In this document: positions 1-5,611 of the stretch, piece by piece
Position numbering within the stretch: the stretch's first letter is position 1
Layout: the number at the start of each line of letters is the position of its first letter
Made by a program: the position numbers and the translations under genes
Assembly: GCA_027021085.1 (NCBI GenBank)
Contig: JALUVB010000284.1
Location: 1-5,611 of the forward strand
Source of the DNA: a bacterium
Lineage (GTDB): Bacteria > CAIJMQ01 > JAADFP01
Direction: 5' to 3'
Length of the DNA: 5,611 bases
The notes under the pieces: generated by a model
What the model saw: the letters and a program-made list of their open reading frames with translations, nothing else
The model's database searches: none
What the model was told of the DNA's origin: nothing

Positions 1-432
1 CCTCTTCTGAAAGTCCAGAATGGTATTAATATGGAAGATATTCTTCAGGTGCGATTTTACCTGGAAGGAGATATTGCTGAAATAGGTGCCTGTAAGAGAA
101 CGGAAGAAAACCTAAAAAAGTTAGGTTCTGCTCTTGAAGGCATGAAAGAAACTATCTCTTCCATAAAGAGATTTGTTAGATACGATATGGATTTTCATTC
201 TGAGCTGGCCAGAAGCACACAGAATAAGATATTCCATTTATTTATTTCCTCCCTCACTGACTTATTATGCGAGGTGCAATTCAGGTATCCTGATACTAAG
301 AAACACAGAGAAGTCTCGCTTGAGTATCACCGGGAAATATTTGAGGCGGTAAAAGGGAAAAATCCTGAAAGGGCTAGGAAGTTAATGCAGGAACATATAG
401 AAACTGTATGGGAGGCGATATGTCGAAGTTAA
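1..432 (+). CDS. GntR-family transcriptional regulator, FCD ligand-binding domain (3' part only)
   Basis: The frame is open from base 1, so the gene begins upstream; 143 C-terminal residues are visible, ending at TAA 430-432. They form the all-helical FCD effector domain of FadR-subfamily GntR regulators. It opens with the typical R-x-x-L-E helix (R18, L21-E22 of the fragment), followed by D-M-D-F-H (D62, H66), a Q-N pair (74-75), Y-H-R-E-I-F (H110) and Q-E-H near the end (H132). Asp plus three His is the usual FCD metal-binding set, so a metal-dependent carboxylate effector is likely by family analogy. The N-terminal winged helix-turn-helix is outside the window, so DNA binding cannot be confirmed here. 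The gene overlaps the next one by 13 bases, which argues that it is co-transcribed with the catabolic genes and probably controls them in response to the substrate or an intermediate. Its operator should lie upstream of the window. Confidence 0.9.
   Translation, partial: PLLKVQNGINMEDILQVRFYLEGDIAEIGACKRTEENLKKLGSALEGMKETISSIKRFVRYDMDFHSELARSTQNKIFHLFISSLTDLLCEVQFRYPDTKKHREVSLEYHREIFEAVKGKNPERARKLMQEHIETVWEAICRS
411..415 (+). promoter_or_regulatory. Shine-Dalgarno that fixes the start of the hydroxyacid dehydrogenase
   Basis: GGAGG lies 4 bases before the ATG at 420. An in-frame ATG at 408 would precede this site and has no purine-rich motif of its own, so 420 is the better start. The site lies inside the end of the regulator gene, implying translational coupling. 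Confidence 0.75.
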
Positions 433-1406
433 AGGTTGTTGTTACAGATTATGTATTTGAAAACTTTAATAGCGAAGAAAAGATTCTGGGAGAGATTGGT
501 GCTGAACTGCGGGTTTTTCAATGTAAGAATCCGCAGGAGTTAAAAGAAAAGGTTAAGGATGCAGATGCGATATTGAATACATATTTATCTCCTCTTGACC
601 GGGAAATTTTTAAACATGCACCTGATTTAAAGATTATTGTTAGATACGGAATAGGTGTGGATACTATCAATATAAAAGATGCTACGGAATTTGGAATAAT
701 GGTAGCAAATGTTCCTGATTACTGTGTAGAAGAAGTAGCAGACCATGCAATGGCATTGTTTCTGGCTCTGGCGAGGAAGATTGTGATTTCGGATAAAAAT
801 GTAAAAAAAGGCAATTGGTCGCTTTCTTACCTTAAACCGCTCAAGGGAATATCTGAAATGACAGCGGGAATAGTTGGATTTGGCAGGATTGGCAAAGCTA
901 TTGCAGGCCGTTTAACCCCTTTTGGCTTAAAGATTCTTTTCTTTGACCCTTATTTAAAAGAGAGTACAATAACAGGGAATAAAAAGGTGGACTTTGATAC
1001 CCTTGTAGAAACAGCCGATGTTATTTTTATTCAGTGTCCTGCCACTGATAGCACCTATCATCTTTTTAACCGGGAGGTATTTTCTAAAATGAAGAAATCT
1101 CCTCTTGTTATTAATACCGCACGGGGCAAAATCCTGGATACTGATAGCCTTATCTGGGCGCTGGAAAATGGGTTGATTTCAGGGGCTGCGCTGGATGTGA
1201 TTGAAGATGAAAGCAGGGTGCAGGAAAAAGATTTTCCTCTAAAATCATACGATAATGTTATACTCACTCCCCATAGCGCCTGGTATTCGGAAAATTCAAT
1301 AAGGAAACTTCAGCAAAAAGCTGCCGAAGAAGTTGTAAGAGGTTTGACCGGGAAACGACCTCGCTCTCTTATAAACCCAGAAGTATTGGAAAGGAGGAAT
1401 GCATGA
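420..1406 (+). CDS. D-isomer-specific 2-hydroxyacid dehydrogenase, CtBP-like
   Basis: This predicted 328-residue cytoplasmic NAD(H)-dependent oxidoreductase would interconvert a 2-hydroxy acid and its 2-oxo acid. The length is normal for the family. Visible landmarks: substrate-loop R-Y-G-I-G-V-D (75-81), nucleotide-binding G-F-G-R-I-G (153-158) with D176 at the end of the second Rossmann strand (favours NAD over NADP), N-T-A-R-G with catalytic R235, catalytic E264, and T-P-H with catalytic H285. The His is followed by S-A-W-Y-S-E, very like the P-H-A-A-W-Y-S-E segment of C-terminal binding proteins, so the closest branch is CtBP-like rather than lactate or phosphoglycerate dehydrogenase. The start at 420 is chosen for its Shine-Dalgarno; 408 would add four residues. 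It overlaps the regulator by 13 bases, and its TGA overlaps the next ATG (ATGA). The true substrate is unknown. In this operon it may reduce or oxidise a 2-oxo/2-hydroxy acid intermediate (inference). Confidence 0.92.
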   Translation: MSKLKVVVTDYVFENFNSEEKILGEIGAELRVFQCKNPQELKEKVKDADAILNTYLSPLDREIFKHAPDLKIIVRYGIGVDTINIKDATEFGIMVANVPDYCVEEVADHAMALFLALARKIVISDKNVKKGNWSLSYLKPLKGISEMTAGIVGFGRIGKAIAGRLTPFGLKILFFDPYLKESTITGNKKVDFDTLVETADVIFIQCPATDSTYHLFNREVFSKMKKSPLVINTARGKILDTDSLIWALENGLISGAALDVIEDESRVQEKDFPLKSYDNVILTPHSAWYSENSIRKLQQKAAEEVVRGLTGKRPRSLINPEVLERRNA

Positions 1407-2191
1407 AGATTGCAAGGATAAAGCATAAGGAAGGAATATCTCATGGAATTATTGAAGATGACCGGGTAAATATAATAAACGGTAATATTTTTGGCCAGTG
1501 GGAAGTCTCGGGCAAGACCTTGCCTCTTTCAGGGGTAAAGCTCCTGGCGCCGGTTGAGCCGTTGCAAATAGTGGCAATAGGGCTTAATTATAGAGAACAT
1601 GCCCGGGAGGGAAATTTTTCTCTTCCGGAAGAACCAGTGATATTCATCAAGACCATAAACACCATCACGGGGCCAGAATCTTATATAATACTGCCCAAAA
1701 TAGCCCCTGATGAGGTGGATTATGAGGCAGAGCTGGTCATCGTGATAGGGAAGAAGGCTAAAAATGTTTCTGAGGAGGAAGCGGATAAGTACATTCTTGG
1801 TTATACCTGTGGTAATGATGTGAGTGCACGGGATTGCCAGCTAAAAAAGGATAAGCAATGGGCAAGGGGAAAAAGTTTTGATACTTTTGCTCCCATAGGG
1901 CCATGGATAGTAACTGGTATTGATGGTGATAGTCTGGGTATAAAACTTATCTTGAACGACCGGATTATGCAAAATTCCAGCACCTCGGATATGATATTCT
2001 CCTGCAGAAAACTGGTTAGCTTTATCTCTCACTGTATGACCCTATATCCGGGAAGCATAATTATGACTGGCACCCCGGCAGGAGTAGGATTTACCCGAAA
2101 ACCACCTGTGTTCTTAAGGGAGGGAGATAAGGTAGTAGTGGAGATAGAGAAGATTGGGAAACTAATCAATTATGTCAAAAGGGAGGTCTGA
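1403..2191 (+). CDS. FAH-family hydrolase/decarboxylase (FAHD1-like)
   Basis: This 262-residue protein has a short N-terminal region and the fumarylacetoacetate hydrolase C-terminal fold from about residue 50. Metal ligands are E108 and E110 (D-Y-E-A-E-L) and D139 (N-D-V-S-A-R-D). A lid motif N-Y-R-E-H-A-R-E supplies H66 and E69; Q146 and K157 (R-G-K-S-F) complete the set known in FAHD1 (H30, E33, E71, E73, D102, Q109, K123), with nearly identical spacing. G-T-P-A-G-V-G lies near the C-terminus. FAHD1-type enzymes cleave acylpyruvates or decarboxylate oxaloacetate; relatives are hydrolases or isomerases in aromatic and sugar-acid catabolism, which cannot be excluded. The gene starts in the ATGA overlap with the dehydrogenase, with AAGGAGG (1391-1397) 5 bases upstream, and ends one base before the aldehyde dehydrogenase start. 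In this context it probably handles a 2-oxo or 2,4-dioxo acid made by its neighbours (inference). Confidence 0.92.
   Translation: MKIARIKHKEGISHGIIEDDRVNIINGNIFGQWEVSGKTLPLSGVKLLAPVEPLQIVAIGLNYREHAREGNFSLPEEPVIFIKTINTITGPESYIILPKIAPDEVDYEAELVIVIGKKAKNVSEEEADKYILGYTCGNDVSARDCQLKKDKQWARGKSFDTFAPIGPWIVTGIDGDSLGIKLILNDRIMQNSSTSDMIFSCRKLVSFISHCMTLYPGSIIMTGTPAGVGFTRKPPVFLREGDKVVVEIEKIGKLINYVKREV
2181..2186 (+). promoter_or_regulatory. Shine-Dalgarno that fixes the start of the aldehyde dehydrogenase
   Basis: GGGAGG sits 6 bases before the ATG at 2193. An upstream in-frame ATG at 2172 lies within the FAH gene before this site and would add seven residues (M-S-K-G-R-S-D) encoded by the ribosome-binding region itself, so 2193 is preferred. 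Confidence 0.75.
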
Positions 2192-2192
2192 T

Positions 2193-3662
2193 ATGCAGAT
2201 CCAGAGGAAACTATTTATTGAGGGGGAATGGGTGGATTCTTCGGAAGGAAAAAGTTTTGAAGTATTAAATCCTGCTACAAACGAAGTAATAACTACTGTG
2301 CAGAGAGCCTCCAAAAAGGATATTCAAAAAGCTATAGATTCAGCTAAAAAAGCTTTTAATGTATGGGGTAAAATGAATCCTTTTGAGAGGAGTAAATACC
2401 TTCACCGGGTAGGCGAGGTAATCGAGAAAAACCTGGAATTTATTGCCGGAGTAGAGACTGACGATGTGGGTAAACCGATTTATGAAAGTAGAAACATAGA
2501 CATAGCAAGCAGCGCGCAAACATTTCATTACTTTGCTGATATCAGTGTTGAAGTTATGGGGGAAGTGATGCCCTCTCCTTTCAATGAGGTGCTTGATTAT
2601 ACTGTGCATGAGCCTGTAGGAGTGATAGGGGCCATAATTCCCTGGAATTTCCCCTTTTTAATCGGAGCCAGAAAGATTGCTTCCGCCCTTGCTGCAGGAA
2701 ACAGCGTGGTAATTAAGCCGGCTACCTGGGCGCCTTTAAGTACCTTGTTGTTTGGAGAAATTTTTAAAGAAGCGGGTATGCCCGAGGGAGTGCTCAATAT
2801 TATACCTGCCTCGGGAAGTGATGTAGGAGAAGTGTTCAGTAAGTCTGAAGACCTGGGTGAGATAAGTTTTACCGGGTCAACTGAAGTGGGAACAAAGTTG
2901 CTGGGAAGTTGTTCCTGCAGTTTAAAGGGATGCACACTTGAATTGGGAGGTAAAAGCCCTGCAGTAGTTTTGCCCGATTGCAACCTGGAAGAGACAGTGG
3001 AGGGAATCCTCTTTGGAGTATACCTGAACCAGGGGGAGTGTTGCTGTGCTGCTACCAGGATAATAGTGCATGATGACATATACGATGAATTCTTGGCAGA
3101 ATTTATAGAGGGAACCAGCAGGATAAGGATAGGCTTGCCGCGAAATGAGGATACCAGACTGGGAGCAATAGTGCACAGAGAGCATCTTAACACAATTATG
3201 GAGTATATAGACTCAGGCAAGAAAGAAGGAGCCACGCTTGTGTATGGGGGAAATATATTGGATAAGGGGGAACTTTCCCGGGGTAACTTTGTTGAGCCCA
3301 CGATTTTTGTGGATGTGAAACCATCCATGAAAATATGGAAAGAAGAGATATTTGGCCCTGTGATAGTAATATGTAAAGCGAAAGATACAGACGAAATGGT
3401 TAATCTCGCCAACGATACAAAATATGGACTTGCCGCCAGCATATGGACGACTAATCTAAAAAAAGCCCATATTCTGGCTGCAAAGATTGAAGCGGGGACG
3501 GTATGGCTTAACCTGCATAATTTTGTCTTCCCCTCTGCTCCCTACGGTGGATATAAGGCAAGCGGCATAGGAAGAGAGCTGGGGAAGGAGGGTGTCCTTG
3601 CTTTAACCCGGACAAAGAATATCATGGTAAACCTGTTTGAGGAAACCTTTAAATGGTATTAA
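2193..3662 (+). CDS. NAD(P)-dependent aldehyde dehydrogenase, non-acylating type
   Basis: This 489-residue cytoplasmic enzyme should oxidise an aldehyde to its carboxylic acid; the length and full domain order match the ALDH superfamily. Landmarks: P-W-N-F with N152 (oxyanion hole), V-I-K-P-A with K175 (cofactor), F-T-G-S-T-E-V-G (Rossmann segment), L-E-L-G-G-K with general base E250, N-Q-G-E-C-C-C with the middle C284 as nucleophile, and E-E-I-F-G-P-V with E385. These correspond to N169, K192, E268, C302 and E399 of mammalian ALDH2. The general base E250 supports hydrolysis of the thioester to free acid rather than transfer to CoA. T178 stands where NAD-specific relatives usually have Glu, so NADP+ use is possible. 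The start at 2193 follows GGGAGG and lies 1 base after the FAH stop; the GRE follows after 14 bases. The substrate aldehyde is unknown; it may come from the GRE reaction (inference). Confidence 0.95.
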   Translation: MQIQRKLFIEGEWVDSSEGKSFEVLNPATNEVITTVQRASKKDIQKAIDSAKKAFNVWGKMNPFERSKYLHRVGEVIEKNLEFIAGVETDDVGKPIYESRNIDIASSAQTFHYFADISVEVMGEVMPSPFNEVLDYTVHEPVGVIGAIIPWNFPFLIGARKIASALAAGNSVVIKPATWAPLSTLLFGEIFKEAGMPEGVLNIIPASGSDVGEVFSKSEDLGEISFTGSTEVGTKLLGSCSCSLKGCTLELGGKSPAVVLPDCNLEETVEGILFGVYLNQGECCCAATRIIVHDDIYDEFLAEFIEGTSRIRIGLPRNEDTRLGAIVHREHLNTIMEYIDSGKKEGATLVYGGNILDKGELSRGNFVEPTIFVDVKPSMKIWKEEIFGPVIVICKAKDTDEMVNLANDTKYGLAASIWTTNLKKAHILAAKIEAGTVWLNLHNFVFPSAPYGGYKASGIGRELGKEGVLALTRTKNIMVNLFEETFKWY

Positions 3663-3668
3663 AGGAGA
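3662..3668 (+). promoter_or_regulatory. Shine-Dalgarno of the glycyl radical enzyme
   Basis: AAGGAGA overlaps the last base of the aldehyde dehydrogenase stop codon; its AGGAG core ends 9 bases before the ATG at 3677. An alternative in-frame ATG at 3653 has a stop codon immediately upstream (3650-3652), only weak purine content before it, and would add just eight residues, so 3677 is preferred. Confidence 0.7.
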
Positions 3669-3676
3669 GATCTTCC

Positions 3677-5611
3677 ATGCATAGAATAGAGATTTTACGC
3701 CAGAGGTGTCTGGAACGAAAAAAGAGGGAGCGAAGCAGTGCAAAATACCCGACTCCAGAACCGCCCTCAAGATTGAAAGAGATATGGATAACCGTGGCTG
3801 ACTTCATTAAAAAAAACACGCAGGAAAAATGGTATACAATAACTAAACAGGGTGCCTTGCTAAGAGAAGTGCTATCGCGTATCTCCTTTGAAATAGACGA
3901 ACTCGAATTACTGGTGGGAAGGATTGCTACCTGGAATCCGGAAAGAGAGGAAGAATTCCGGGAGGCACAAAAGATTTTAGAATATTATCCTTTTCCTTCC
4001 GGTCAGACAGGTCATGCCGAGATAGATTACCCGCTTATACTTAAACATGGGATAACCGGCATACGCGAGATAATCCACAAAAAGATGGAGAAGCTGTCTT
4101 CCTATAAATGGCAGGATTATAGAAAGAAAGAATTCTACCAGGCATGCCTTTTGTCCCTGGAAGGTTTTGAAGAAATGGTAACGAATTGCCAGGAATTGGT
4201 GAGGCAAGCTATTGCAAAAGAGAAAAATGAGAAAAGGAAAGAAGAGTTAGAAGTTCTGCTAAAAGTTTTAGAAAGAGTACCGCTTTATCCTGCCAGCACC
4301 TTCTATGAAGCTATCCAGTGCATCCTCCTTACTTCCATTGCCTGCCAGTTTGGGGAGAGAATTGGTTTTATAGTTCCCGGAAGGCTGGACCGAACCCTTA
4401 TAAAGTACTACCGGCGCGACCTGGAGGCAGGAAATATTAGCAGGGAAAAAGCCCTGGAGCTCATAGAGAACATGTACATCATAATCAATGAAAACACCAA
4501 GGACGGAGGAGCAGTTTCAGTAATGGTGGGGGGGCAGGATGAAAAGGGTAATGATACCACTAACGAACTATCCTACCTGTGCCTGGAGGCATTGAGAAGA
4601 ACCAGGCTCATTTATCCCTCGGTAGGAATATGCTGGAATAAAAATACTCCGGAAGATTTGCTGGACTTAGCCTGCGATTTAATTAAAGATGGCATATGCA
4701 CGCCTGCCTTCTTCTCCGATGACACTATAATAGAAGGCATGAAAGAATACGGGGTCCCGGAGAAAGAAGCCCACCATTACATTAACTCTACCTGTGTAGA
4801 AATAACCCCCATTGGCTCAAGTAATGTATATGTAGCCAGCCCCTACTTCAATATATGTCAGATTCTTCTGGAAGAAATCCAGGAAGAAAAAACTCATAAA
4901 AACTTTGAAGAATTTATTTCCGGGTATAAAAAAAGGTTGTCAGAATCTATTAAAGCGGCTGTAGAGCGGCAAAATAGCTTCAGGTTTTCTCGCCTGCACT
5001 ACGGAGGTAAACCTTTCCAGAGCATATTCACCAAAGATTGTATAGATAAGGGAGAGGATATTGACTGGGGAGGTGCTCGTTATAACTGGATAGAATGCAG
5101 TTTTGTAGGCCTGGCAAATCTGGTGGATAGTTTATACGTGATAAAAAAAGAGATATTTGAGGAAAAGATTTTAACTATTAAAGAATTAAGAGAAATCCTG
5201 GAAAAGAATTACGAGGGGTTTGAGGATGTCAGGCAAAGATTCCTGAGCTATCCGAAATACGGAAATGCCATGGAAGAAATTGACGCTTTAGCCGTAGAAC
5301 TAACAGAATTCTTGCGAAGCGAATGCAAAAAATACACGGTATATCCCGGCAGTCATTTTATCCCCGGCTTCTTCTGCTGGGTAGCGCATGAAAGTTTTGG
5401 CAGAATAACCGGAGCAACTCCGGATGGAAGAAAAAAAGGGTTTCCCTTTGCCGATGGAGCCGGACCTGCCCAGGGCAGAGAACGAAAAGGTCCTACCTGT
5501 GCAATTCTTTCCACCACCTGCTGGGAGCATTACCCCATGCTTGGAGGGTTAGTGCTTAACCTTAAATTTACCAAGAACACCTTCAAAACCAGGGAAGATA
5601 TTATAAAATTG
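3677..5611 (+). CDS. Glycyl radical enzyme, PFL-like superfamily, unknown substrate (3' end cut off)
   Basis: The frame is open for 645 codons to the window edge with no stop. The order of conserved segments is that of the PFL-domain of glycyl radical enzymes: E-L-L-V-G (77-81), G-H (112-113), P-G-R-L-D (234-238), V-G-G-Q-D (284-288), T-N-E-L-S-Y (295-300), T-P-A-F-F-S-D-D (342-349), active-site S-T-C-V-E with C373 and E375, G-G-A-R-Y-N (465-470), D-S-L (484-486), K-Y-G-N (527-530) and P-D-G-R (582-585). Cys-x-Glu is the signature of the dehydratase/lyase/decarboxylase members (glycerol dehydratase, choline lyase and relatives); true pyruvate formate-lyase has Cys-Cys. The radical-bearing glycine, usually about 330 residues after the Cys, should fall near residue 700, beyond the window. 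A radical-SAM activase is required and is not in view; it may lie just downstream. The residue before the Cys is Thr rather than the usual Gly. Substrate not identifiable; last gene visible in the catabolic operon. Confidence 0.93.
   Translation, partial: MHRIEILRQRCLERKKRERSSAKYPTPEPPSRLKEIWITVADFIKKNTQEKWYTITKQGALLREVLSRISFEIDELELLVGRIATWNPEREEEFREAQKILEYYPFPSGQTGHAEIDYPLILKHGITGIREIIHKKMEKLSSYKWQDYRKKEFYQACLLSLEGFEEMVTNCQELVRQAIAKEKNEKRKEELEVLLKVLERVPLYPASTFYEAIQCILLTSIACQFGERIGFIVPGRLDRTLIKYYRRDLEAGNISREKALELIENMYIIINENTKDGGAVSVMVGGQDEKGNDTTNELSYLCLEALRRTRLIYPSVGICWNKNTPEDLLDLACDLIKDGICTPAFFSDDTIIEGMKEYGVPEKEAHHYINSTCVEITPIGSSNVYVASPYFNICQILLEEIQEEKTHKNFEEFISGYKKRLSESIKAAVERQNSFRFSRLHYGGKPFQSIFTKDCIDKGEDIDWGGARYNWIECSFVGLANLVDSLYVIKKEIFEEKILTIKELREILEKNYEGFEDVRQRFLSYPKYGNAMEEIDALAVELTEFLRSECKKYTVYPGSHFIPGFFCWVAHESFGRITGATPDGRKKGFPFADGAGPAQGRERKGPTCAILSTTCWEHYPMLGGLVLNLKFTKNTFKTREDIIKL

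Follow-up and report, generated by a model that had tools for sequence, protein, structure and literature searches.

The locus considered here raises the question of which reaction is carried out by a glycyl radical enzyme (GRE) encoded at the end of a row of putative catabolic genes. GREs carry out anaerobic eliminations that few other enzymes manage, and many members of the family are without an assigned substrate. The window, i.e. the whole stretch of DNA that was analyzed, is the entire contig C284 (5,611 bases) of an assembly of 1.93 Mb, and all features described below lie on its forward (+) strand. The window GRE is probably an oxygen-sensitive radical enzyme which removes water from a sugar-derived molecule.

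The GRE gene (3677..5611), assigned to the eliminase type from the open reading frame, Pfam and the AlphaFold model, encodes 645 residues in a frame that remains open up to the contig end, where the C-terminus is cut. Residue numbers are counted from the Met at 3677; the Shine-Dalgarno-like sequence AAAGGAGAG (3661..3669), read directly, favors this ATG over the one at 3653. The match to the PFL-like Pfam model is far above chance (402 bits, E 5.5e-120, cut-off 24.3), and a search with this model finds no other GRE in the assembly. About 70 C-terminal residues are missing: the match to Gly_radical (PF01228) covers positions 1–53 of 106 (24 bits) and stops with the contig end, and the RVxGY glycyl loop falls beyond it. 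The original prediction had named the absence of this motif as evidence against it. The motif is indeed unseen in the window, but the full-length relatives in the clade carry RVAGY, and its absence is therefore probably an effect of the contig end. All contigs of the assembly were searched for the missing 3' end, and none supplies it. Likewise, in a search of these contigs with TIGR02494, no GRE activase reaches the cut-off. Activases are present in the genomes G267, G287, and G419–G421, and the activase gene of the window genome probably sits in an assembly gap. Contamination of the bin was considered and is disfavored, as the 4-mer composition of the contig agrees with the remaining bin. The missing activase and the missing half of the glycyl domain, along with the absence of the GRE gene from the same-genus genome compared, could also mean that the gene is non-functional or its product not activatable in the host. 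This is scarcely probable, given an open frame with all catalytic residues present, intact full-length relatives, and a contig that ends exactly where the missing parts belong, in an assembly 94% complete and divided into 307 contigs.

The catalytic Cys is C373, located on the Cys loop N-S-T-C-V-E-I (4784..4804), and with V374 and E375 it forms in the alignment the Cys-x-Glu motif of the GRE eliminases. Ser-Thr stands before the Cys in this loop, at a place where other GREs usually have Gly. The Cys-Cys pair of pyruvate formate-lyase is absent (T-C-V-E in the window versus C-C-V-S in E. coli PflB). Both the PFL-like GRE with C373 and E375 and its placement among the Cys-x-Glu eliminases, not the pyruvate formate-lyases, were thus correctly predicted. 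In GREs, hydrogen is taken by the thiyl radical formed on the Cys, and the Glu of Cys-x-Glu forms a hydrogen bond with the substrate hydroxyl; the motif is common to choline lyase and isethionate lyase (PMC8473560). A third residue, His113 (4013..4015), is conserved in the subfamily and aligns with H164 of glycerol dehydratase and with H160 of the trans-4-hydroxy-L-proline dehydratase HypD, which is essential in that enzyme (PMC7077986).

In respect to the glycerol dehydratase columns, H164, C433, and E435 are kept in the window GRE, whereas H281, S282, Y339, and D447 are replaced by G, F, A, and A, respectively. The HypD positions were assigned via the glycerol dehydratase columns aligned with HypD H160, D278, F340, C434, and E436; D278 corresponds to G and F340 to A. 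The active-site loop NENTKDGGAVSV (4487..4528) is shortened in the alignment, by 13 residues in respect to HypD and by 12 in respect to glycerol dehydratase. The shortened stretch is the one that in HypD bears S334 and D339, whose S334A and D339N variants are inactive (PMC7077986). Other residues, among them D463, W471, E473, W568, and R601, are near-invariant in the clade and not in the reference GREs.

The AlphaFold2 model, obtained with 33 subfamily sequences as input (mean pLDDT 90.9, pTM 0.92), shows the alpha/beta barrel of GREs with the PFL-like domain. Its best structural match is propanediol dehydratase 5i2a (Z 44.3, rmsd 2.0, 632 aligned residues) and the second is glycerol dehydratase 1r8w (Z 43.5, rmsd 1.9, 628 aligned residues), followed by choline lyase (Z 42.6) and hydroxyproline dehydratase 6vxc (Z 42.2). 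The Z values are 33.9–39.7 for the arylacetate decarboxylases and 35.5–36.9 for the YbiW and PflD structures. Judged from the model, the fold in common with the diol dehydratases does not assign the substrate. That the enzyme is simply a B12-independent dehydratase of glycerol or propanediol, as might be expected from these closest structures (~28% identical), is very unlikely: the glycerol contacts are replaced as described above, the window GRE belongs to a separate clade, and neither microcompartment nor acylating aldehyde dehydrogenase genes are found in the window.

None of the characterized NCBIfam equivalogs is reached by the window GRE, the best score of this truncated query being 272 bits against cut-offs of at least 1000. 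With the same truncated query, the sulfopropanediol dehydratase models NF048011 and NF048009 give 272 and 251 of 1000 bits, the choline trimethylamine-lyase (CutC) model TIGR04394 262 of 1050, and the HypD model NF043068 256 of 1100; the arylacetate decarboxylase models give 191 of 1100 and 173 of 1150 bits. These scores bear on the possibility that the enzyme is an eliminase or lyase acting on another leaving group or bond, by C-N, C-S, or C-C cleavage or by decarboxylation. The occurrence of Cys-x-Glu in choline lyase and isethionate lyase is in line with it, the pocket residues match no class in the comparison, and choline lyase and the arylacetate decarboxylases match the fold as well. Still, with the curated choline lyase and arylacetate decarboxylase models far under their cut-offs, diol dehydratases as the top structural matches, and a window in which amine, sulfite, or arylacetate partner genes are absent, we regard such a reaction as improbable.

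In the tree, 36 sequences including the window GRE form one clade with a support of 1.0. None of the 8 reference GREs (E. coli YbiW, PflD, and PflB, the Citrobacter pdu GRE, glycerol dehydratase, HypD, CutC, and sulfopropanediol dehydratase) falls inside this clade, in a tree drawn without isethionate lyase IslA, HplG, and 9rco; the window GRE is outside the CutC and sulfopropanediol dehydratase branches. Clustering inside a characterized GRE clade, which would have spoken against the original prediction, thus did not occur among the included references, and the claim that the enzyme fits no characterized GRE agrees with the profile scores, the tree, and the changed substrate contacts. Support is weak for a broader group of short GREs, at 0.77 when it comprises 59 sequences and 0.09 when two more are added.

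The members of the N-S-T-C-V-E clade have ~720 residues. They are frequent in Armatimonadota and occur here and there in Planctomycetota (Phycisphaerae), in genomes labelled Omnitrophota, and in others; relatives 38–43% identical include those from genomes labelled Armatimonadetes, Omnitrophota, and Phycisphaerae. In a phylum-level set around one Armatimonadetes genome, a GRE match at E 1e-110 or better is present in 50 of the 291 genomes, and the closest GREs of this set (loci L126, L128, L129, and L130) are 45–48% identical to the window protein. A query of genome contigs with an alignment yielded five GRE loci, while a single-protein scan yielded no relative; in viral contigs, neither approach found a GRE relative. 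No literature on GREs in Armatimonadetes was found among open-licence papers. As far as can be told from the sequences, the subfamily is a widespread GRE branch without a characterized member among the references compared.

The genes preceding the GRE are those named in the original prediction. The FCD-domain (GntR-type) regulator (1..432, Pfam) is 5'-truncated by the contig start, leaving its C-terminal part, and is followed by a CtBP-like D-2-hydroxyacid dehydrogenase (408..1406, Pfam/NCBIfam, with an alternative start at 420), a FAH-family hydrolase (1403..2191), and a non-acylating aldehyde dehydrogenase (ALDH, 2172..3662). All these genes and the GRE gene overlap or almost touch, and co-transcription of the five is therefore likely. 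The predicted FAH hydrolase has a His-x-x-Glu dyad (H66, E69), as in acylpyruvate and diketo-acid hydrolases. We also considered a KdaD-type FAH enzyme (2-keto-3-deoxyarabinonate dehydratase), which would supply the ALDH as part of a Weimberg-like route; it is disfavored by the dyad, which presumably favors a hydrolase or decarboxylase. In 5-hydroxy-2,4-dioxopentanoate hydrolase the dyad is formed by His83 and Glu86 (PMC6336799).

This set of neighbors, considered unusual in the original prediction, is found again in other phyla, accompanied in some loci by a GRE and in others by LarA. In the Armatimonadota-level set, CtBP orthologues at least 47% identical (47–59%) are found in 9 of the 291 genomes. 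The gene order is GRE-FCD-CtBP-ALDH-FAH in L234 and FCD-CtBP-ALDH-activase-GRE in L232, FAH being absent from the segment read; in L075, the CtBP orthologue (54% identical) directly follows the GRE. L231 carries CtBP-ALDH-FAH without a GRE. A LarA-type racemase homologue takes the place of the GRE in L229 (3809–8679, CtBP-ALDH-LarA-FAH) and in L233 (4108–9453, FCD-CtBP-ALDH-LarA-FAH), and these homologues of nickel-pincer racemases score 344–348 of 460 bits for LarA. The operon orthologues are 46–48% (ALDH), 56–61% (FAH), 51–59% (CtBP), and 28–34% (FCD) identical to those of the window. The recurrent gene order and these identities together indicate that FCD-CtBP-ALDH-FAH is a recurrent module found in other phyla.

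The GREs of this recurrent operon come from different subclades: the window and L075 have N-S-T-C-V-E, L234 has G-G-C-T-E-T, and L232 has another type. On the contig that holds L234 and L235 (C24 of genome G663), the G-G-C-T-E-T GRE of the operon is accompanied by a second GRE, cut by the contig end and closely related to the N-S-T-C-V-E clade. GREs of the G-G-C-T-E-T type also adjoin FAH in L188, L189, and L074. FAH stands next to GREs in L073, L074, L188, and L189, with an SDR and an activase in L073 and L074 as well. In these two loci (L073 5704–8274, L074 4592–6186), the SDR and a NAD-dependent epimerase-like gene occur with FAH, GRE, and activase, and possibly stand in for CtBP and ALDH. 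Tandem GRE pairs, some with frames in pieces, were observed with FAH and/or one shared activase in L188 (7437–12052), L189 (4003–9231), L074 (4592–12119), and L067 (77–5664). The FAH orthologue is widespread, mostly away from GREs and beside unrelated genes; its identity (57–63%) was for this reason rejected as proof of the pathway. The CtBP orthologue is rarer, and its link with the GRE is therefore more telling.

Whether the GRE is coupled to the operon can be judged from two counts, both of which ignore shared ancestry. A GRE of the family is present in 6 of the 9 CtBP genomes compared with 50 of 291 in the whole set (P 0.001 by a hypergeometric test, ignoring shared ancestry), and a GRE adjoins the CtBP orthologue in 3 of the 9 other loci (L075, L232, and L234), where ~0.036 per locus is expected if one GRE per 330 kb is assumed, a rough estimate from candidate counts (P 0.003, likewise ignoring shared ancestry). 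Seen from the GRE side, most close relatives of the window GRE lie outside the FCD-CtBP-ALDH-FAH operon, and of the 40 loci surveyed around GREs in the Armatimonadota-level set, several of which are on short contigs, none has FAH, CtBP, or ALDH nearby; the coupling is therefore specific to some genomes. The alternative is that FCD-CtBP-ALDH-FAH is a stand-alone pathway for 2-hydroxy acids and aldehydes, beside which a usually solitary GRE happens to be placed here. The 40 loci agree with this, as do L231 and the two loci with LarA. The two counts above and the tight spacing of the window genes on one strand speak against it, and we consider it unlikely, although it keeps an appreciable share of the probability. 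The original prediction holds for an unassigned GRE subfamily with distinctive neighbors; its proposed product, an aldehyde plus a 2-oxo acid feeding this pathway, is hypothetical.

No shared pathway emerged among the Armatimonadota GRE neighborhoods, in which activases, GFO/MocA-type oxidoreductases, and URO-D-like proteins make up most of the recurrent families. URO-D-like genes lie near GREs in L067 (6926–8212), L125 (2–1180), L130 (2310–3587), L138 (6582–7844), and L232 (1891–3024); those of the first four loci, named by eye, belong to a single sequence family, and that of L232 matches Pfam URO-D. An exo-sialidase/BNR-like gene (by sequence only) lies near the GRE in L066 (15311–16570) and L072 (12199–13296), conserved in two related genomes. 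In L066, a HpaI-type aldolase and an amidohydrolase-2 protein are encoded upstream of a close GRE relative, and in L188 a GH123-like protein is encoded beside FAH-GRE; both putative contexts fit glycan breakdown.

The sequences thus indicate a real eliminase-type GRE, in whose subfamily no characterized member was found, sited in a recurrent catabolic module. The best explanation is that this GRE of the N-S-T-C-V-E clade dehydrates a sugar-derived polyol or sugar acid which the operon oxidizes and cleaves, a tentative reading to which we give somewhat less than an even chance. The fold, the Cys, Glu, and His residues, the clade, the loop deletion, and the recurrence of the operon are observed. 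We infer the radical activation, the dehydration, the substrate class, the coupling to the operon, and the order of steps as follows. The activase would install the glycyl radical in the C-terminal loop beyond the contig end, and the radical would move to C373, which would take hydrogen from a hydroxyl-bearing carbon; E375 and H113 would handle the proton, and the neighboring hydroxyl would depart as water. The substrate, whether a polyol derived from a sugar or a sugar acid, would exceed propanediol in size, as suggested by the shortened pocket loop and by several relatives located among glycan-degrading genes. The deoxy-oxo product would be oxidized by the ALDH and the CtBP-like dehydrogenase, and cleavage of the oxidized product by the FAH hydrolase would yield a 2-oxo acid plus a carboxylic acid, as in non-phosphorylative sugar-acid pathways.

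LarA enzymes isomerize 2-hydroxy acids, including gluconate (PMC11770544). The GRE chemistry, the FAH dyad, and LarA in the place of the GRE together favor a sugar-acid or 2-hydroxy-acid pathway. In a more specific version, which we regard as doubtful, a glycyl radical aldonate dehydratase would replace the metal-dependent ones in an anaerobic pathway of the non-phosphorylative kind, and the CtBP-like enzyme would produce a 2,4-dioxo acid for cleavage by FAH. A search of open-licence papers found no GRE sugar-acid dehydratase, and co-mentions of GRE and FAH were incidental. Against the best explanation stand the many relatives outside the operon, the mixed GRE subclades, the commonness of FAH elsewhere, the lack of D447, and an assembly without the activase and the glycyl loop. 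If the sugar-acid reading is true, it would represent a radical route into sugar-acid catabolism. The N-S-T-C-V-E subfamily is now outlined, with a pocket unlike those of the characterized glycerol and hydroxyproline dehydratases, and the recurrent operon offers a basis for choosing candidate substrates.

Among the known systems, the glycerol/1,2-propanediol dehydratases (1r8w, 5i2a) resemble the window GRE in the fold (Z 43.5–44.3), Cys-x-Glu, and the His at the H164 position, but are only 28–29% identical to it, and differ in the Ser-Thr before the Cys, the microcompartment genes, which the window lacks, and, for glycerol dehydratase, the unconserved H281, S282, Y339, and D447 and the 12-residue shortening of the active-site loop. 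HypD (6vxc) is similar in the fold (Z 42.2), CxE, and the H160 equivalent, and differs by the G at D278, the A at F340, the 13-residue loop deletion, and the NCBIfam score of 256 of 1100 bits. In the L-rhamnose diketo-hydrolase pathway and in the non-phosphorylative Route III (KDP dehydrogenase with an FAH-family hydrolase of 2,4-dioxo acids, PMC6336799), which yield pyruvate and a hydroxy acid, the FAH enzyme has His-x-x-Glu and is fed by a dehydrogenase, as proposed here. There, sugar acids are dehydrated by UxaA/GarD, IlvD/EDD, or enolase enzymes, with no GRE described, and the dehydrogenase is an SDR, as found in L073 and L074, unlike the CtBP-like enzyme of the window. YbiW and PflD, the 1,5-anhydrohexitol-6-phosphate GREs, share the fold, but are found on separate branches of the tree and have PTS or HAD-phosphatase neighbors in E. 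coli, not FCD-CtBP-ALDH-FAH. Their action on sugar derivatives is documented (PMC12441222).
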